A DNA stretch of 64,000 bases from Christiangramia sp. OXR-203. Lineage in GTDB: Bacteria; Bacteroidota; Bacteroidia; Flavobacteriales; Flavobacteriaceae. The translations under genes were made by a program, and so were the position numbers. Where the stretch lies: contig NZ_CP139698.1 of NCBI RefSeq assembly GCF_034372165.1, positions 806,001-870,000 on the forward strand, read 5' to 3'. Numbering within the stretch: the first letter of the stretch is position 1; each line of letters begins with the position of its first letter. Under the pieces are notes generated by a model. That model was not told where the DNA came from, did no database searches, and was given only the letters and a program-made list of their open reading frames with translations. Shown in pieces: positions 5,667 through 46,625 of this stretch.

Positions 5667-7469
5667 ATGACAGCTATTAGAAATATCGCGATTATCGCAC
5701 ACGTTGACCACGGTAAGACGACCCTGGTTGATAAAATAATGTATCACTGTGAATTGTTCCGTGATAACCAATCTACAGGTGATCTTATCCTGGATAACAA
5801 TGATCTTGAAAGAGAACGTGGAATCACGATTACTTCCAAGAACGTTTCTGTTGTTTATAAAGACACGAAGATCAATATCATTGATACTCCTGGTCACGCC
5901 GATTTTGGTGGTGAGGTAGAACGTGTTTTAAACATGGCAGATGGTGTTCTTCTATTAGTAGATGCCTTTGAAGGTCCTATGCCACAGACAAGATTCGTTT
6001 TGCAAAAAGCGATCGATCTTGGTTTAAAACCTTGCGTGGTTGTAAACAAAGTGGACAAAGAAAATTGTACTCCGGAGGAAGTTCATGAGAAAGTTTTTGA
6101 TCTAATGTTCGAACTTGGTGCTGAAGAGTGGCAGTTGGATTTCCCAACGGTTTACGGATCTGCCAAGAACAACTGGATGAGTGACGACTGGAGAAATGAA
6201 ACTGAAAATATCGAGCCGCTGCTTGATATGGTAATGGAACATATTCCTGCACCTAAAGTAGATCTTGAAGGTTCTCCTCAAATGTTGATCACTTCTCTGG
6301 ATTTCTCTTCATTTACAGGTCGTATTGCGATTGGTAGATTGCAAAGAGGAACTTTGAAAGAAGGTCAGCAGGTTTCTTTAGTGAAGCGTGATGGAAGCAT
6401 TAAAAAAACAAGAATTAAAGAATTACATACTTTCGAAGGTTTAGGCCGTAGAAAGATCGAAGAAGTGCAGGCCGGTGATATTTGTGCTATCGTTGGACTG
6501 GAAGGATTTGAAATTGGTGATACTGTTGCTGATCTTGAAAATCCTGAAGGACTTAAGACGATCGCTATCGATGAGCCTACAATGAGTATGCTTTTCACAA
6601 TTAATGATTCTCCTTTCTTCGGAAAAGACGGAAAGTTTGTGACTTCAAGACATATCAAGGAAAGACTTTTCAAGGAACTTGAAAAAAACCTTGCGCTTCG
6701 TGTTCAGGAAACTGATAGTGCAGATAAATTCATGGTTTTTGGTAGAGGTGTACTTCACTTATCTGTTCTTATTGAGACAATGAGACGTGAAGGTTATGAG
6801 TTGCAAATTGGTCAGCCACAGGTAATTATCAAAGAAATTGACGGAGTGAAATGTGAGCCAATTGAAGAGCTTACGATCGATCTTCCGGAAGATGTTTCTG
6901 GAAAAGCCGTGGAAATGGTAACAATGAGAAAAGGAGAGATGCTTTCTATGGAATCAAAAGGAGAGCGAATGAATATTCAATTCCTTATTCCTTCCAGAGG
7001 TATTATTGGTCTTAGAAACCAGTTGCTTACTGCTACTGCAGGTGAGGCGATCATGGCGCACAGATATAAAGAATATCAGCCGCTTAAAGGTGGAATTCCT
7101 GAAAGACAGAACGGATCTTTAGTTTCTATGGAGAAAGGAAAAGCAATTCCTTATTCTATCGATAAACTTCAGGACCGAGGTAAATTCTTCGTAGATCCAG
7201 GAGAGGATATTTACGAAGGTCAGGTAATTGGTGAGAACTCACGTCAGGATGATATGGCGGTGAATATCACTAAAACGAAAAAGCTTTCTAACGTACGATC
7301 TTCAGGAGCAGACGATAAAGCGAAGATCGTTCCTGCGATTAAGTTCTCTTTAGAAGAAGCTTTAGAATATATTCAGAAGGATGAGTATGTTGAGGTTACT
7401 CCACAGCACTTAAGACTTAGAAAGATCTACCTTACTGAAAACGAACGTAAGAGAAATAAGATCGTATAA
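5667..7469 (+). CDS. typA: Ribosome-associated translational GTPase TypA/BipA
   Basis: 600 aa, the normal length. G domain at the N-terminus: [14 protein letters not shown] (G1, about residues 11-24), RERGITI (G2), [12 protein letters not shown] (G3), VVNKVDK (G4). Domain II, an EF-G-like domain with [15 protein letters not shown], and the TypA-specific C-terminal domain ending near the C-terminus follow. It binds the 70S ribosome in an EF-G-like way and is needed under cold or stress conditions in other bacteria. A TACATTTG box (5638-5645) precedes the ATG by about 20 nt, with no clear TTG upstream of it. Confidence 0.97.
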
Positions 7470-40127: not shown

Positions 40128-40146
40128 ATTTAAAATTAATCTAAAT
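40128..40146. promoter_or_regulatory. Palindrome-like site 1 upstream of the DUF4856-imelysin operon
   Basis: ATTTAAAATTAATCTAAAT: imperfect palindrome with TTTAAA and TCTAAA half-sites 5 nt apart. It ends 5 nt before the -33 TTG, where a repressor or activator could act. A second copy is at 40198. Confidence 0.45.
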
Positions 40147-40150
40147 AAAC

Positions 40151-40181
40151 TTGCGGTAATTACAACCTCATATTATATTTG
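40151..40181 (+). promoter_or_regulatory. Promoter of the DUF4856-imelysin-carboxylase-receptor operon
   Basis: TTG (40151-40153), 20-nt spacer, TATATTTG (40174-40181); the ATG is at 40223. Confidence 0.65.
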
Positions 40182-40197
40182 CGCTGGAATTAGTTAT

Positions 40198-40213
40198 TTT
40201 AAACCAGTCTAAA
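40198..40213. promoter_or_regulatory. Palindrome-like site 2 in the leader of the same operon
   Basis: TTTAAACCAGTCTAAA: same TTTAAA/TCTAAA half-sites with a 4-nt centre, in 12 of 16 positions self-complementary. It lies between the promoter and the ATG. Together with site 1 it brackets the promoter, as operators of metal-responsive repressors often do; the regulator is not identified. Confidence 0.45.
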
Positions 40214-40222
40214 TAAAACTAT

Positions 40223-41434
40223 ATGAAAAAGCTGTTCGTTTCAGCCTTTGTTGCAGCCCTTACTTTAAGCTCATGTTCATCTGATGATGATGCTGATATT
40301 CTAAACGAGAAAAATATTGAAGTTCCGGTTTCTTACGATTTTACGAGAAACGGTGAATCTACTGTAAACTTTGAAGGACAAACTACCAGACTACAAATGT
40401 CTGCTGAACTTCTATCAAACTTTACCGATTTTGACAACGCTTCAGAAGAAATGTTGCTGAATATGTTCGCGAATGAAAATTCACCTTTCGATAATGAAGA
40501 TCTTAATGCTTCCAGTAAAAGTATCAAATCCAAAGTAGCAGCTTCAAACTTGTATTTTTCTACCAATAATGTAGAAGCCAGTGAGATCAAATCTGATTTT
40601 GAATCCTGGATCACCGAGCAAATGACTACTGTTAAAGCTAATAAAGATATGCTTGCAGAAGCAGGTCAGGCAGGACAGATTGCACAGGGAACGCGTGTAA
40701 GATACGTGAACGGAAAAGGTCTGGAATTGAATCAGGCATTTGCAAAGTCACTTATTGGTGGTCTTCTTGCAGATCAAATTCTTAATAATTACCTATCTCA
40801 GCCAGTTCTTGACGAAGCAGATAATAGGTTGAATAATGATGATGAGCTTCCGGAAGAGGGTAAAAATTACACTACAATGGAGCATAAGTGGGATGAAGCT
40901 TATGGTTACTTATATGGTGATCCATCAATTCCTGCTTCCAATCCAAATTCTATCCTGAATGAAAGCGATGACAGATTATTGTTCAGCTATTTAGGACAGG
41001 TTGATGAAGATGAAGATTTCGCCGGAATAGCTGAAGAAACTTTTGAAGCCTTTAAAACTGGTAGAGCAGCAATCGTTGCAGGGAATTACGTAGTACGTGA
41101 TGAGCAGGTTGCTATTATTCGTGAGAATATTTCCAAAACTATCGCGGTAAGAGCAGTTTACTATCTGCAGGATGGTAAGAACCTTCTTGCAAATGGTGAG
41201 TTTGGAGCAGCATTCCATGCGCTATCTGAAGGTTATGGTTTCCTTTATAGCTTAAGATTCACCAATGATCCTATGACGAATATGCCTTATGTAAGCGTGT
41301 CTGATATCAATAATTTTAAAGATCAATTATTAAGCGGAAATGGTTTCTGGGAAGTAAGTCCTGATACTCTGGACAGTATTTCAGAAAAGATCGCTGCAGA
41401 ATTTGATTTTAGTGTAGCTGAAGCAGCAGAATAA
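40223..41434 (+). CDS. DUF4856 lipoprotein, first gene of a putative metal-uptake operon
   Basis: 403 aa. Lipobox LTLSSC with Cys18, then SSDDD. The start of the domain reads IEVPVSYDFTRNGESTVNFEGQTTRLQMSAELL, which I recognise as DUF4856, a Bacteroidetes family with no known biochemistry. The rest is mostly helical and acidic (EEMLLNMFANENSPFDNEDL, GQVDEDEDFAGIAEETFEAF), reminiscent of imelysin-like folds. Followed by an intra-operon hairpin (41441-41461) and the imelysin-like gene 43 nt downstream. Acidic surface and operon context suggest binding of a metal or metal complex; this is inference. Confidence 0.85.
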   Translation: MKKLFVSAFVAALTLSSCSSDDDADILNEKNIEVPVSYDFTRNGESTVNFEGQTTRLQMSAELLSNFTDFDNASEEMLLNMFANENSPFDNEDLNASSKSIKSKVAASNLYFSTNNVEASEIKSDFESWITEQMTTVKANKDMLAEAGQAGQIAQGTRVRYVNGKGLELNQAFAKSLIGGLLADQILNNYLSQPVLDEADNRLNNDDELPEEGKNYTTMEHKWDEAYGYLYGDPSIPASNPNSILNESDDRLLFSYLGQVDEDEDFAGIAEETFEAFKTGRAAIVAGNYVVRDEQVAIIRENISKTIAVRAVYYLQDGKNLLANGEFGAAFHALSEGYGFLYSLRFTNDPMTNMPYVSVSDINNFKDQLLSGNGFWEVSPDTLDSISEKIAAEFDFSVAEAAE

Positions 41435-41440
41435 TAATTT

Positions 41441-41467
41441 ACCGGAGTCTTGTGCTCCGGTTTCTCA
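41441..41467 (+). terminator. Attenuating hairpin between the first two genes of the operon
   Basis: ACCGGAG, 7-nt loop, CTCCGGT followed by TTCTCAATT. The T-run is interrupted, so this should only reduce transcription into the following genes and raise the relative dose of the first lipoprotein. Confidence 0.55.
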
Positions 41468-41477
41468 ATTAAACGAT

Positions 41478-42596
41478 ATGATTAAATTTTCAAGACTATT
41501 CATTGTATTTGCACTGATCTTCGCTGCTTGTTCTTCTGAAGATGACGGCACAGAGACAGGTGGGGAAACTGGAGGAACAGATTCTTTTGATCGTGGCGCA
41601 ATGCTTGTAAACTGGGCAGATAATATCATTGTCCCTGCTTACAATAACATGGCTGCTAAGACGCAGAATGTGGAAACGGCAGCTACTGCTTTTACCACAG
41701 CTCCAGATGCTGCAGGTTTGCAGCAACTTCGTGAGGCTTATGTAGATGCATACAAGAGCTTCCAGTCGGTTTCTATGTTCCAGGTTGGAAAGGCAGAGGA
41801 AATTAACTATCGTAGTTATCTAAATACATATCCGGCAAATACCTCGAATATCGATTCTAAAATAAGTTCAGGTTCTTTCAATCTGGAATTACCTTCCAGT
41901 TTTGCAGAACAGGGACTGCCAGCTTTGGATTACCTTTTATTCGGTATGGGAACTTCGGAAGAAATCGTTGCTATATATAGCTCAAACGAGAACTACCGTA
42001 CCTATTTAAATGCTGTAGCCTCAAGAATGAATGCTCTTACTACTGAGGTTTCAAATTCATGGAATGGAGACTACAGAGATACTTTTGTAAGCAATACTTC
42101 TTCATCAAGCACAGGATCTGTTGATAAATTTACGAATGACTATGTAATGTACTTCGAGAAGATTCTTAGATCTGGAAAGATAGGATTTCCGGCAGGTGCA
42201 TTTACAGGGACTGCGTCTCCTTCTAATGTAGAAGCGCGTTTCAATGCTGAGATTTCAAGAGAACTTTATCTGGAAGCGGTACAAAGCTTTGAAGACTTTT
42301 TCTACGGAAGACATTTTTCAGGAAATGGAACTGGAAGCAGCTACAAACAGTATCTTGAGTATCTGGATAGTATGAAAGACGGAGCAGATCTGGCTAGTTT
42401 AATTGAGGATCAATTAGATGCCATCCAATCTCAAAGTTCATCTCTGGAAACGAATCTGAAATCACAGGTAGAAAAAGATAACACTAAAATGCTGGAAGCT
42501 TATGACGAATTGCAGAAGGCTGTGATTCTACTAAAAGTTGATATGATGCAGGCATTATCGATTAGTGTGGATTATGTAGATTCAGATGGGGATTAA
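41478..42596 (+). CDS. Imelysin-family lipoprotein with altered GxHxxE motif
   Basis: 372 aa. Lipobox IFAAC with Cys18. Imelysin/peptidase M75 two-bundle helical fold: MLVNWADNIIVPAYNNM near the start, LREAYVDAYKSFQSVSMFQVGKAEE, and a second half with YFEKILRSGKIGFPAGAF and DFFYGRHF. At the place of the family's GxHxxE motif the sequence reads G146-L-P-A-L-D151 (GLPALDYLLFG): His is Pro and Glu is Asp. It is therefore unlikely to be a metallopeptidase; imelysin-like proteins are often iron-regulated periplasmic or surface proteins of iron transport. Seven nt separate it from the next gene. Confidence 0.9.
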   Translation: MIKFSRLFIVFALIFAACSSEDDGTETGGETGGTDSFDRGAMLVNWADNIIVPAYNNMAAKTQNVETAATAFTTAPDAAGLQQLREAYVDAYKSFQSVSMFQVGKAEEINYRSYLNTYPANTSNIDSKISSGSFNLELPSSFAEQGLPALDYLLFGMGTSEEIVAIYSSNENYRTYLNAVASRMNALTTEVSNSWNGDYRDTFVSNTSSSSTGSVDKFTNDYVMYFEKILRSGKIGFPAGAFTGTASPSNVEARFNAEISRELYLEAVQSFEDFFYGRHFSGNGTGSSYKQYLEYLDSMKDGADLASLIEDQLDAIQSQSSSLETNLKSQVEKDNTKMLEAYDELQKAVILLKVDMMQALSISVDYVDSDGD

Positions 42597-42603
42597 TATC
42601 TGA

Positions 42604-43968
42604 ATGCTGTTTTCTGCAAATAAATATCTAAAAAAGTATACGGAAGCTGCCCCTTTGGCGGCTTTTCGTTTATTTTTTGGTTTGATGATGTTTGCCAGTA
42701 TCGTGCGTTTCTGGGCCAACGGCTGGATCGAGAAACTTTATATTGCCCCAAAATTTTTCTTCTCTTATTATGGATTTGAATGGGTACAGCCAATAGGTGA
42801 GTATACCTATCTAATATTTATCATCTGTGGGCTTTCTGCCCTGGCTGTCGCAGCAGGTTTCAAATACCGACTATCTATCATCGTGTTTTTCCTGAGTTTC
42901 ACTTATATCGAGCTCATGGATAAGACAACGTATTTGAACCACTATTATTTTATTAGTATCCTGAGCTTTTTGATGATCTTTCTTCCCGCGAATGTCTATT
43001 TTTCTATAGATGCCTGGAGAGATAAAAAGAAATCCTTTCAAAAAGTACCGGCCTGGTGCGTGGATTCTTTAAAACTGCTTCTAGCGATCGTATATTTCTA
43101 TGCGGGACTGGCAAAACTAAATTCAGATTGGTTGTTGAGAGCCATGCCTTTGAAAATCTGGCTACCCTCCAAATATGATCTGCCGTGGCTGGGCGACATC
43201 ATGCAGCAGGAATGGTTGCATTACGCCTTTAGCTGGAGCGGGATGTTATACGATCTTTTCATACCATTTCTATTACTGTGGCGTCGCACAAGATTTGTAG
43301 CTTTTATCATGGTGATCATTTTTCATGTACTCACCCGTGTACTTTTTCCTATCGGAATGTTCCCTTACATCATGATCGTAAGCGCCTTGATATTTTTTAG
43401 TCCGAAGCTGCACCACAGGATCCTGAAGTTTATTGCTGAAATATTTAAGATCGATAAATCAAAATTCGATACTTCTGAAGTATACCAATTTCCTGATATT
43501 ACTGGTAAGATCGTGAGAACTGTCGTAGTGATATTCTTTACAGTTCAGCTTTTACTACCATGGAGATATTTAGCATACCCGGGAGAATTATTCTGGACTG
43601 AAGAAGGTTTTAGATTCAGCTGGCGGGTGATGCTTATGGAAAAAGCTGGTTACGCTCAGTTTAAGATAGTAGATGCTGAAACCGGAAATCGTTTTTACGT
43701 TAATAATTCAGATTTTCTGACTCCTTTCCAGGAAAAACAGATGTCCTTCCAACCAGATTTTATTTTGCAATACGCGAAATTTCTTGAAGATCATTTCAGC
43801 AAAGATGGTCATAAGAATATAGAGATTTACGTAGAGAACTACGTGGCGCTTAACGGCAGAAAGAGTGCGCCTTACATCGATCCTGATGTAAATTTGCTTA
43901 ATTTTGCCGACTCGTTTGAACACAAAGAATTCATATTACCATTCCAGGATGAAATTAAAGGTCTTTAG
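42604..43968 (+). CDS. Bacterial homologue of vitamin K-dependent gamma-carboxylase (HTTM family, full-length type)
   Basis: 454 aa. Residues ~13-320 are the HTTM membrane domain with about seven to eight helices (APLAAFRLFFGLMMF, YRLSIIVFFLSF, VYFYAGLAKLNSDW, FHVLTRVLFPIGMFPYIM). From memory of human GGCX, colinear blocks are conserved: DKTxxxNH (here D106-K107-T108 and His113, the human His160 region), AGxxKLxxDW (Lys171 aligns with the catalytic base Lys218), FHx5LFxIGMFxYxM (His241). The 130-residue soluble end (SWRVMLMEKAGYAQFKI…QYAKFLEDHF…IDPDVNLL) also aligns with the human lumenal region, whereas the human C-terminal third is absent. Human enzyme oxidises reduced vitamin K and carboxylates Glu. 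The substrate here is unknown. Confidence 0.85.
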   Translation: MLFSANKYLKKYTEAAPLAAFRLFFGLMMFASIVRFWANGWIEKLYIAPKFFFSYYGFEWVQPIGEYTYLIFIICGLSALAVAAGFKYRLSIIVFFLSFTYIELMDKTTYLNHYYFISILSFLMIFLPANVYFSIDAWRDKKKSFQKVPAWCVDSLKLLLAIVYFYAGLAKLNSDWLLRAMPLKIWLPSKYDLPWLGDIMQQEWLHYAFSWSGMLYDLFIPFLLLWRRTRFVAFIMVIIFHVLTRVLFPIGMFPYIMIVSALIFFSPKLHHRILKFIAEIFKIDKSKFDTSEVYQFPDITGKIVRTVVVIFFTVQLLLPWRYLAYPGELFWTEEGFRFSWRVMLMEKAGYAQFKIVDAETGNRFYVNNSDFLTPFQEKQMSFQPDFILQYAKFLEDHFSKDGHKNIEIYVENYVALNGRKSAPYIDPDVNLLNFADSFEHKEFILPFQDEIKGL

Positions 43969-46381
43969 TATCATATTCTTGTTTACTTCACTGGCTCAGG
44001 CTCAGTTCACGGTTAGTGGAACGGTTACTTCAGTTGAAGACGGTTCTGCTATTGCTAATGCTGAAGTATGGAACAAAACAGTTTCAGAAATGGTACTTAC
44101 CAATGAAGATGGGATTTTCAGAATAGAGAATCTTCAGGAGGGTAATTACGAATTTGCAGTTTTCAGTTTTGAATATGCGATCGCAGATAAAGAGATCTTT
44201 ATAAATGCTGATACCCAAGTGAATTTTGAGCTTGCAAAACTTTCCAATAACCTTAGTGAAGTAATGATCACTAATCGCAGGGAAGAGGTATTCGCGCTAA
44301 GAAAACTACGTAAGGTAGAAGGAACTGCAATTTATGCAGGTAAGAAAAGTGAGGTGGTTCTGCTTGATAAAACAGTAGGAAACCTGGCGGCTAATAATGC
44401 CAGACAGATCTACAATCAGGTGGTAGGACTCAATATCTATGATAATGGCGATGCTGGATTGCAATTAAATATTGGAGGTCGCGGGCTTGATCCTAACCGA
44501 ACCCAGAATTTTAATACCAGGCAAAACGGTTACGATATTTCAGCAGATGTTTTGGGATATCCTGAAAGCTACTACACACCTCCTGCAGAAGCTCTTAAAG
44601 AGATTCAGGTGGTTCGTGGAGCCGCATCCTTGCAATACGGGACACAGTTTGGCGGGATGATCAACTTCAAATTCAAAGAACCGGTAAAGGATAAAAAGAT
44701 AGAGCTTATTTCCAGGCAGAGTGTAGGCTCGTATGATCTTTTTACCAGTTTCAACAGCCTTAGTGGAACTGTAGGTAAATTGAGTTATTACACTTATTTT
44801 CATTATAAAGGCGGGGAAGGTTTTCGGCCAAATTCTGGTTACGATTCCAGGAATGTATTCGCTCATCTTGGTTACCAGTTAAGTGATCGCACCAATATTA
44901 GTTTTGAGTATACGTACCTGGATTACCTTGCACAACAACCGGGAGGGCTTTCAGATTTTCAATTCTATGAAGATCCGGATTTTAGCAATCGGGAAAGAAA
45001 CTGGTTCGATGTTAACTGGAATCTTTATGCCTTCAAACTACAACACAAACTTACAGACAGAACAGATGTTAGCGTTAATTTCTTCGGGCTGGATGCGACA
45101 AGAAAAGCGCTTGGATTTAGAGTAGATAGAGTTTCCCAGGTAGATGATCTGGATGCACCAAGAGAATTGCTGGTAGACAATTTTTCAAATTGGGGAATCG
45201 AAACGAGGTTTTTAACAAGGTACGACCTGCTTAATGATCAGTCGGTTTTCCTAATTGGAGCAAAGTATTATGATGCCAATAATGACCAAAGACAAGGACC
45301 TGGCAGTAATACGACCGGTCCCGATTTCTCCTTTGCAGATGCAACATATCCAGATTACGCGAGACAGGCTGAGTTTAACTTCCCAAATAAGAACCTTGCA
45401 ATTTTTGGAGAGAACATTTTTAATATTTCTGAAAGATTATCGGTTACTCCCGGCTTTAGATTTGAATATATAAACACTGCTTCTGAAGGGTCTTACAAAA
45501 ATATTATTTTGGATCTGGCAGGAAATCCACTTCAGAATGAAACTGTAGAAGATAGTCGTGATTTCGAGCGTTCTTTCGTCTTACTTGGTGTTGGATCCAG
45601 TTATTCCCTGAATCCTAAGAACGAACTCTACGCAAATATCTCCCAGAATTACAGGTCTGTTACCTTTAATGATATTAGAGTTGTGAATCCCAATCTTGTC
45701 ATAGATCCTGAAATTACCGATGAAGAAGGTTTCACTGCAGATGTTGGTGTGCGTGGAAGACTTGCCGATAAGGTTTCTTATGATGTAAGCGTTTTTGGAT
45801 TAAGGTATAATGACAGGATAGGGGTTGTGGACGTGGCTACAGCTACAGATTATTACCGATATAAATCCAATATTGGTGATGCCTTTATATACGGTTTGGA
45901 AACATTCGCTGACTGGGATCTGAAGAATACTTTTTTTGAAGCTTCTGAAGATCATAAGCTCAACTATTTTGTGAATGCTGCCTTTACGAGTTCTGAATAT
46001 GTGGATTCTAATGAGATCAATGTAGAAGGAAATGAGGTTGAATTTATTCCAAAGGTAAACCTGAAAACCGGTCTTAACTTTGGTTATAAAAACTTTCTCG
46101 CAGGTCTTCAATATACCTATTTATCTGAACAGTTCTCAGACGCTACGAATGCTCCTCAGGATGTAGATGATAGGATCAATGGAATTCGAGGTTCCATTCC
46201 ATCTTATGGAATTATGGATGTATCTGCTAGCTATACCCTTGGCAAATTTAAGCTGGAAGCAGGGATCAATAATCTGTTGGATAATAGTTACTTTACACGT
46301 AGGGCCACAGGATATCCCGGGCCTGGGATCATTCCCGCACAGCCGCTTACCTGGTATTCAAGTCTGCAGATAAAATTATAG
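43949..46381 (+). CDS. FecA-like TonB-dependent receptor, last gene of the operon
   Basis: 810 aa from ATG 43949 (signal peptide MKLKVFSIIFLFTSLAQAQ). The frame extends upstream to 43904, but those codons precede the signal peptide and are rejected. The start overlaps the end of the carboxylase-like gene by 20 nt, a sign of translational coupling. Domains: carboxypeptidase-like regulatory domain (~20-105), plug (~130-245, NARQIYNQVVGLNIYDNGDAGLQLNIGGRG, IQVVRGAASLQYGTQFGGMINF), and a barrel whose nearest named relatives are ferric-citrate receptors of FecA type. Transports a metal complex or other large ligand across the outer membrane. Confidence 0.93.
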   Translation: MKLKVFSIIFLFTSLAQAQFTVSGTVTSVEDGSAIANAEVWNKTVSEMVLTNEDGIFRIENLQEGNYEFAVFSFEYAIADKEIFINADTQVNFELAKLSNNLSEVMITNRREEVFALRKLRKVEGTAIYAGKKSEVVLLDKTVGNLAANNARQIYNQVVGLNIYDNGDAGLQLNIGGRGLDPNRTQNFNTRQNGYDISADVLGYPESYYTPPAEALKEIQVVRGAASLQYGTQFGGMINFKFKEPVKDKKIELISRQSVGSYDLFTSFNSLSGTVGKLSYYTYFHYKGGEGFRPNSGYDSRNVFAHLGYQLSDRTNISFEYTYLDYLAQQPGGLSDFQFYEDPDFSNRERNWFDVNWNLYAFKLQHKLTDRTDVSVNFFGLDATRKALGFRVDRVSQVDDLDAPRELLVDNFSNWGIETRFLTRYDLLNDQSVFLIGAKYYDANNDQRQGPGSNTTGPDFSFADATYPDYARQAEFNFPNKNLAIFGENIFNISERLSVTPGFRFEYINTASEGSYKNIILDLAGNPLQNETVEDSRDFERSFVLLGVGSSYSLNPKNELYANISQNYRSVTFNDIRVVNPNLVIDPEITDEEGFTADVGVRGRLADKVSYDVSVFGLRYNDRIGVVDVATATDYYRYKSNIGDAFIYGLETFADWDLKNTFFEASEDHKLNYFVNAAFTSSEYVDSNEINVEGNEVEFIPKVNLKTGLNFGYKNFLAGLQYTYLSEQFSDATNAPQDVDDRINGIRGSIPSYGIMDVSASYTLGKFKLEAGINNLLDNSYFTRRATGYPGPGIIPAQPLTWYSSLQIKL

Positions 46382-46382
46382 A

Positions 46383-46625
46383 TCACGCAGTAGCTTGCGG
46401 TGCCCAGTGACTGCATAACATTCCTGGTGCTGCTTTTTGGGGATTCGCACAGGTTGGACTTTCATATCTGGCACAATTAAGGCAGTTCTTCTCATTTTTG
46501 ATAGCCGCTTTCATTTCAAAACTGTCGCATGTATGCTGAACGTTTACCGCGGTTTCATGTTTAGTGCAAAAGTTATTCTGAAAATTGTCGCAATTAGTGC
46601 AGCTGTTTCCTAGTCTAATACTCAT
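46383..46625 (-). CDS. Small protein with two tandem four-cysteine modules
   Basis: 80 aa, not recognised. Cysteines occur in two similar units: C9-x2-C12-x7-C20-x12-C33 and C48-x2-C51-x7-C59-x11-C71. Each unit also shares CxNC, then F/Y two residues on, and an aromatic near the end (CDSF, CSHW). This looks like an internal duplication of a metal-binding (zinc or iron) or disulfide-linked knuckle. No signal peptide, so metal binding in the cytoplasm is more likely than disulfides. Convergent with the TonB receptor; stops are 1 nt apart. Confidence 0.78.
   Translation of the reverse strand: MSIRLGNSCTNCDNFQNNFCTKHETAVNVQHTCDSFEMKAAIKNEKNCLNCARYESPTCANPQKAAPGMLCSHWAPQATA

Follow-up and report, generated by a model that had tools for sequence, protein, structure and literature searches.

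What does a relative of the human clotting carboxylase GGCX do in a flavobacterial operon, beside two lipoproteins and a TonB-dependent receptor? To our knowledge the native task of the bacterial relatives of this enzyme is open. The locus in question lies at positions 40,128 to 46,381 of a 64,000-nucleotide (nt) stretch of Christiangramia sp. OXR-203 (the window; contig NZ_CP139698.1, positions 806,001 to 870,000), whose genome is a single 3.4 Mb contig and whose closest named relative, judged by the vitamin K-dependent gamma-carboxylase (VKGC) homologue, is Christiangramia portivictoriae (94%). The answer favoured here, with a probability of roughly 0.6, is that the four genes form a Fur-repressed iron-acquisition operon of the Bacteroidota with a required membrane oxygenase step. 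Put most cautiously, the locus is an operon for iron acquisition under Fur control that has a slot for a membrane oxygenase.

Operon structure and conservation

The four open reading frames (ORFs) are all on the plus strand and are separated by 43, 7 and -20 nt, as the sequence-only reading of this DNA had stated; the last is counted from its own ATG. Lengths are in amino acids (aa).

40223-41434, plus strand: DUF4856 lipoprotein, 403 aa (PF16148, E 6.8e-136; lipobox Cys18 by direct reading)
41478-42596, plus strand: imelysin-like lipoprotein, 372 aa (PF09375, Peptidase_M75, E 4.1e-34)
42604-43968, plus strand: VKGC homologue, 454 aa (PF05090 and PF22777; human GGCX, E 3.9e-42)
43114-43116, plus strand: codon of Lys171, the counterpart of the human catalytic base Lys218, kept in all 60 operonic VKGCs and in all 41 others
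43949-46381, plus strand: TonB-dependent receptor with N-terminal CarboxypepD_reg, 810 aa (PF00593, PF07715, PF13715)

The association of the four families proved to be conserved. Neighbourhoods (139) were fetched and annotated with models grown from the genes of the window; DUF4856, imelysin-like gene, VKGC and TonB receptor followed one another uninterrupted in 56 of them, representing 26 families and 43 genera of Bacteroidia, with DUF4856 and VKGC always on one strand. The same gene set without VKGC was found in 14 of the 139. A class draw of 295 genomes (Bacteroidia) contained DUF4856 in 76 and the VKGC lumenal domain in 80; this draw, the hydroxylase model and the trees described below were quick analyses. 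Both genes were present in 54 class genomes, in 47 of which they lay on the same strand, DUF4856 first and 1.9-2.45 kb apart, an order far beyond chance. Of 80 named loci retrieved by the similarity of their VKGC, 71 also showed the quartet; this is a lower count, as L178, L237 and L247 lost their VKGC label (the overlap filter is the believed cause), and not a blind linkage test, the loci having been chosen by VKGC. Named carriers include Salegentibacter, Aquimarina, Polaribacter, Tenacibaculum, Maribacter, Bizionia, Kordia and a metagenome-assembled genome of Balneola. Denser sampling of one family (f13) returned only the 10 genomes already seen. Within the fetched neighbourhoods no neighbour recurred at VKGC operons beyond local synteny. 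Literature searches for a published description of the operon, with subscription papers outside their coverage, gave only a list from Riemerella (PMC5609570).

Some loci departed from this layout. Two Roseivirga loci (L197, L198) held a two-gene DUF4856-VKGC unit, imelysin and receptor being absent within the fetched DNA, and had Fur-like sites of 14/19 and 16/19. In an Oceanihabitans locus (L252) a ferritin-like gene (5931-6506) occupied the usual place of DUF4856 and was followed by imelysin, VKGC and receptor. A DUF4856 relative stood in an apparent SusC/SusD-type locus without imelysin (L083), and in genus g56 (L070, L097-L099) a DUF4856-imelysin pair had neither receptor nor VKGC beside it.

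Predicted Fur control and the link to iron

The region in front of the first gene, taken upstream from its ATG, contained three predicted elements, among them a candidate for the promoter claimed by the sequence-only reading.

40196-40214, plus strand: a further Fur-like site of lower score, ATTTTAAACCAGTCTAAAT, downstream of the promoter and ahead of the ATG, 14/19, which may be chance
40151-40181, plus strand: predicted promoter, TTG at 40151-40153 and TATATTTG at 40174-40181, which we take to be of the Bacteroidetes type
40128-40146, plus strand: Fur box ATTTAAAATTAATCTAAAT, 17/19 against the Riemerella Fur consensus (PMC5609570), the top site in the 64 kb

Sites were scored out of 19 against that consensus, ATTTAGAATTATTCTAAAT (PMC5609570), within 220 nt upstream of DUF4856, with a threshold of 15/19; upstream stretches shorter than 150 nt were dropped. 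Boxes of at least 15/19 preceded 128 of 145 operons, as compared with 34 of 696 further genes in these loci and 17 of 725 control sequences from a Markov model, and they preceded 11 of 13 VKGC-less operons as well.

In Riemerella anatipestifer, RAYM_09779 (TonB receptor), RAYM_09784 (vitamin K-dependent gamma-carboxylase), RAYM_09789 (imelysin lipoprotein) and RAYM_09794 (hypothetical) appear in a table of putative Fur-regulated genes (PMC5609570). The set resembles the quartet and its tags are evenly spaced; from the gene order RAYM_09794 would be DUF4856. All four were raised without iron (2.11, 2.64, 3.07 and 2.41, in the order given) and in a fur mutant (1.90, 1.39, 1.93 and 1.36), and that paper lists them without analysis, giving neither a Fur box nor a binding test for any of the four. 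A response to the iron regulator MliR is described for two genes of Bizionia argentinensis, one imelysin-like and one for a TonB receptor (PMC9478572). This species carries the quartet (L222), to which the responsive genes may belong. The boxes and the Riemerella list (PMC5609570) bear out the link to iron that had been proposed from the imelysin and receptor genes. An iron role of the operon is thus well supported, and many marine and soil bacteria probably switch the operon on when iron is short.

Imelysin/EfeO/IrpA loci likewise contain an imelysin-like lipoprotein within an iron-regulated operon (PMC3143127); unlike them, the quartet has no GxHxxE motif, EfeB-type peroxidase or EfeU, and has a receptor and VKGC. 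Neither EfeU nor EfeB was found in the quartet or among recurrent neighbours of VKGC operons, and the system is not of the EfeUOB type. HmuY-HmuR and other pairs of a lipoprotein and a TonB receptor are Fur-controlled, as is the quartet, which differs from them by two unrelated lipoproteins and a membrane oxygenase. HmuYR is itself on the Riemerella Fur/iron list (PMC5609570).

The VKGC homologue

Both domains of the VKGC homologue scored far over their cut-offs of 27.7 bits: PF05090 (HTTM) with 275 bits (E 8.9e-82) and PF22777 (VKGC_lumenal_dom) with 204 bits (E 1.2e-60). The structure model (predicted local distance difference test, pLDDT, 87.5) aligned to human GGCX with Z 32.7 over 440 of its 454 residues. 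On this fold, which is that of GGCX and not of a transporter, a permease was rejected.

Functional residues of GGCX were taken from a cryo-electron microscopy paper (PMC12589487) and counted in 60 operonic copies, VKGCs below 400 aa being dropped. The catalytic base K218 (K171 in the window) and the holders of the Glu side chain, N159 and H160 (H113 in the window), were kept in 60/60. So were F286, F299 and W223 of the naphthoquinone pocket, which takes menaquinol or vitamin K hydroquinone, while F294 was kept in 54/60; the tunnel residues G259 and A214 were kept in 60/60 and 59/60, M401 was Val in 60/60, and Y425 was not conserved. The enzyme thus resembles GGCX in fold, base, Glu-holding residues and naphthoquinone pocket. 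It differs in length (454 as against 758 aa), in having neither PBD-2 nor Arch, in several lost residues taken up below, and in having no known gamma-carboxyglutamate (Gla) substrate. The model stops at human residue 508-517, so that the propeptide-binding claw formed by PBD-1 and PBD-2 was not found. K217 links PBD-2 of GGCX with the membrane domain (PMC12589487), and its loss fits a bacterial protein without PBD-2.

Operonic VKGCs clustered on the tree (3 label changes, as against 32 on average after shuffling), and the 41 non-operonic VKGCs were mostly apart from them. The genome of OXR-203 itself has a second VKGC homologue (L022:5532-6851; G000:C1, about 3291.5 kb) in which Lys218 is kept. 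This copy sits between apparent ribF and serS genes and is not close to iron genes; similar orphans occur in other genomes.

Exchange of VKGC for a hydroxylase-family protein

A protein of about 310 aa of the fatty-acid-hydroxylase family (PF04116) stood beside 9 of the 14 VKGC-less operons, upstream, downstream or divergent. Its PF04116 matches ranged from E 5.8e-22 to 2.6e-26 in the five copies scanned, and His clusters were conserved in all nine. The protein was found in 0/56 quartet neighbourhoods and 0/80 named-locus neighbourhoods. It was then searched genome-wide with its own model, and the result was crossed with an imelysin search of the 295 class genomes; a weak point is that copies adjacent to the operon were the basis of this model. 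Imelysin was present in 86 genomes, of which 64 had VKGC only, 15 the hydroxylase only, 2 both and 5 neither; three of these last five were less than 90% complete. The hydroxylase was found in none of the 209 class genomes without imelysin (Fisher about 1e-10, kinship uncorrected).

The order of genome G171 (46 genomes; tally read from tables, not scripted) gave 15 imelysin genomes: 7 with VKGC, 7 with the hydroxylase, 0 with both and 1 with neither. Eight of these were new with respect to the first sample (5 hydroxylase, 2 VKGC, 1 neither). The 31 genomes of the order without imelysin lacked the hydroxylase, the order and class samples overlapping. Genomes with the hydroxylase at the operon or within 6 kb of it were without VKGC in 14/14 cases. 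Eight hydroxylases away from the operon scored lower (250-433 bits), six in genomes without VKGC and two in genomes with it. The receptor tree required four changes of the hydroxylase label, each forced by supported branches, and species with VKGC and with the hydroxylase interleaved within genus g16; short receptors, imelysins and DUF4856s were dropped from the trees. The swap, newly seen here, is a clear pattern built on few events. Since the hydroxylase is usually present where VKGC is missing, the enzyme slot looks like that of an interchangeable membrane oxygenase.

In two loci (L307, L309) a single cluster held the hydroxylase, a 362-aa gene, two further imelysin-like genes on either side of a lipoprotein-like gene, and the VKGC-less operon, with four Fur-like sites each (16-18/19).

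Lipoproteins and receptor

Both lipoproteins have a lipobox, with acidic residues behind the Cys in many copies. Acidic stretches after the lipid-bearing Cys can mark surface export in Bacteroidetes. DUF4856 has a candidate metal motif, E220-H221..D224-E225 with H332xxxE336, in which D224 and H332 are near-invariant and E336 is invariant. Operons that have VKGC and those that lack it retain the conserved acidic residues of DUF4856 equally, which suggests that this candidate site is independent of carboxylation. Residues 219-345 weakly matched the FEA1-related model NF038033 (24.2 bits, cut-off 250, E 1.2e-5), and the likeness was seen in 9 of 39 DUF4856 members. FEA1 proteins are iron-assimilation proteins of algae; below the cut-off DUF4856 is not a member, and 0/296 phylum genomes had a protein over 250 bits. 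The DUF4856 model is helical (pLDDT 89.9) and its best fold match was a catenin helical bundle (Z 7.8). Foldseek returned no solved structure at E<=0.001, and sequence comparison with the PDB gave nothing clear. DUF4856 as a second imelysin was rejected, the profile comparison sharing the signal peptide only. The Roseivirga two-gene units are the best pointer to DUF4856 as the partner of VKGC.

The imelysin-like protein belongs to the Peptidase_M75 superfamily (118.9 bits, cut-off 23.5) and matched the imelysin-like PDB entries 3pf0 and 3n8u by profile. On direct reading of 41478-42596 no GxHxxE was present; residues 146-151 read GLPALD. The receptor had plug (PF07715) and barrel (PF00593) over cut-off and reached 125 bits with TIGR01783 (cut-off 223.5). 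Its description as FecA-like holds at the level of the superfamily and not of the equivalog, with 95.2 bits against 1100 for the NCBIfam FecA model and no STN domain listed.

Carboxylation of glutamates on the lipoproteins, which the sequence-only reading had offered as speculation, was examined by comparing sequences from operons with and without VKGC: 133 and 19 for DUF4856, 134 and 21 for imelysin, 132 and 13 for the receptor, short sequences being dropped. The enzyme has the residues for such a reaction (60/60) and the partners gave no VKGC-specific acidic column, which leaves carboxylation of the lipoproteins no more than a possibility. The absent signature is weak evidence, because Flavobacteriaceae are overrepresented in the VKGC-bearing set and acidic linkers, being flexible, cannot be aligned.

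Other features of the locus

One further element lies within the operon.

41441-41461, plus strand: terminator-like hairpin between genes 1 and 2 (7 pairs, -12.5 kcal/mol)

The hairpin is present where it had been claimed, and a G+C-rich hairpin of like form, with the stem letters changed, was seen in the eight close relatives shown (L174-L177, L179-L182). As a general feature it was rejected: the gap between genes 1 and 2 had a median of 6 nt over the 56 operons and was at most 30 nt in 33 of them. Convergent with the end of the operon is an 80-aa Cys-rich ORF (window 46383-46625, minus strand), relatives of which lie close behind the receptor in eight named loci. A Fur-like site of 15/19 (46663), a score that may be chance, lies 38 nt before its start.

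Discussion

The proposed mechanism is as follows. DUF4856 and the imelysin-like lipoprotein, which has no peptidase motif, are probably on the cell surface and would aid the TonB receptor in binding and importing an iron complex. VKGC would be an integral-membrane enzyme of the GGCX type that uses O2 and menaquinol: it would oxidise menaquinol, and the resulting strong base would serve to modify a periplasmic partner, in the simplest case by carboxylation. This is expected because the Lys base, the menaquinol pocket and the Glu-coordinating Asn and His are kept. Several lineages appear to have swapped VKGC for a di-iron hydroxylase-type protein of PF04116, a replacement from which the pathway would need a membrane oxygenase step and not one particular chemistry. 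A more specific version is quite unlikely: that the native role lies in iron uptake, with a menaquinol-driven GGCX homologue placing carboxylate metal ligands on DUF4856 and/or the imelysin-like partner of the receptor, and an unrelated di-iron hydroxylase repeatedly taking over with other chemistry.

Several observations weigh against the favoured mechanism. No acidic (Glu/Asp) column of the three partners was kept in VKGC-bearing operons (90%) and lost in the others (50%). Among the 60 operonic VKGCs, Y395 is Tyr in 50 and Phe in 10, the window having Phe; K217 is Ala in 59 and N158 is Leu in all 60; neither R436 nor the C99-C450 disulfide is retained, so that both Glu-backbone residues, R436 and N158, are altered in all 60. 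Human-type propeptide recognition cannot work in the bacterial protein, since its chain stops before PBD-2 and has lost K217, N158, R436 and the disulfide. Two genomes (G087, G005) have both enzymes. There were five supported independent pairs, with opposite enzymes 4.0 and alike 0.0 on average (median p 0.125). None of the eight hydroxylases away from the operon (L298-L305) had a 15/19 Fur site within 300 nt upstream, by which a Fur box shared throughout by hydroxylase and operon was rejected. Finally, the quartet contains no inner-membrane permease; the complete uptake route that had been claimed falls short at this point, VKGC having the GGCX fold.

Of the other explanations, the one that survives best is that the substrate of VKGC and of the hydroxylase is a lipid, a lipid head group or a small metallophore used with the receptor, and not a protein. 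It is somewhat unlikely. Alternative occupancy of one slot, persistence of receptor and lipoproteins through the swap, and the missing protein Glu signature all agree with it, and the PF04116 superfamily acts on membrane lipids; yet no metallophore biosynthesis genes recur beside the operon, GGCX is known for protein Glu only, and L197 and L198 have no receptor.

It is likewise somewhat unlikely that VKGC is a true protein gamma-carboxylase, with Gla on one of the lipoproteins (DUF4856 or imelysin-like) supplying metal ligands of the malonate type and another route serving the hydroxylase lineages. The intact Glu pocket and base, the acidic stretches behind the lipid-bearing Cys in many copies and the Roseivirga units, with DUF4856 and VKGC only and with Fur-like sites, would suit such an enzyme. 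The lack of a Glu column specific to VKGC operons, the missing PBD-2 for a propeptide and the changed N158 and R436 do not.

VKGC might instead be chiefly a menaquinol epoxidase or oxidase, handling redox or O2 at the site of iron import and carboxylating nothing. A Leptospira relative reportedly has epoxidase and no carboxylase activity; the literature search did not find it. The menaquinol pocket is kept (F286, F299, W223, G259) and parts for substrate recognition are lost, but retention of N159 and H160, which in GGCX hold the Glu side chain, and the fact that a PF04116 protein would not perform this reaction make the idea distinctly unlikely.

Improbable, too, is that the complementarity of the two enzymes is a by-product of lineage history and the hydroxylase a bystander. 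The small number of independent pairs, the orphan hydroxylases without Fur boxes at eight loci and the origin of the search model would permit it. It is opposed by the 14/14 genomes with a near-operon hydroxylase and no VKGC, the differing positions of the hydroxylase (upstream, downstream or divergent) between lineages, the interleaving in genus g16, and the absence of the hydroxylase from the 209 class and 31 order genomes without imelysin.

That the cargo is not iron but Mn, Zn, Ca or some non-metal ligand, Fur control being mere co-regulation, is very improbable in view of the Fur boxes and Riemerella data (PMC5609570), the imelysin relatives in iron loci (PMC3143127), the weak FEA1 likeness of DUF4856 and the ferritin-like gene in its place in L252, even though none of the four proteins has a demonstrated ligand.

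An operon of this kind offers the bacterial VKGCs a conserved setting, iron, together with candidate partners and a natural replacement for comparison, and with these the substrate of VKGC can now be searched for by mass spectrometry. The exchange of VKGC for a PF04116 protein in one operon hints at a required membrane oxygenation step, and would tie together two enzyme families not otherwise linked.

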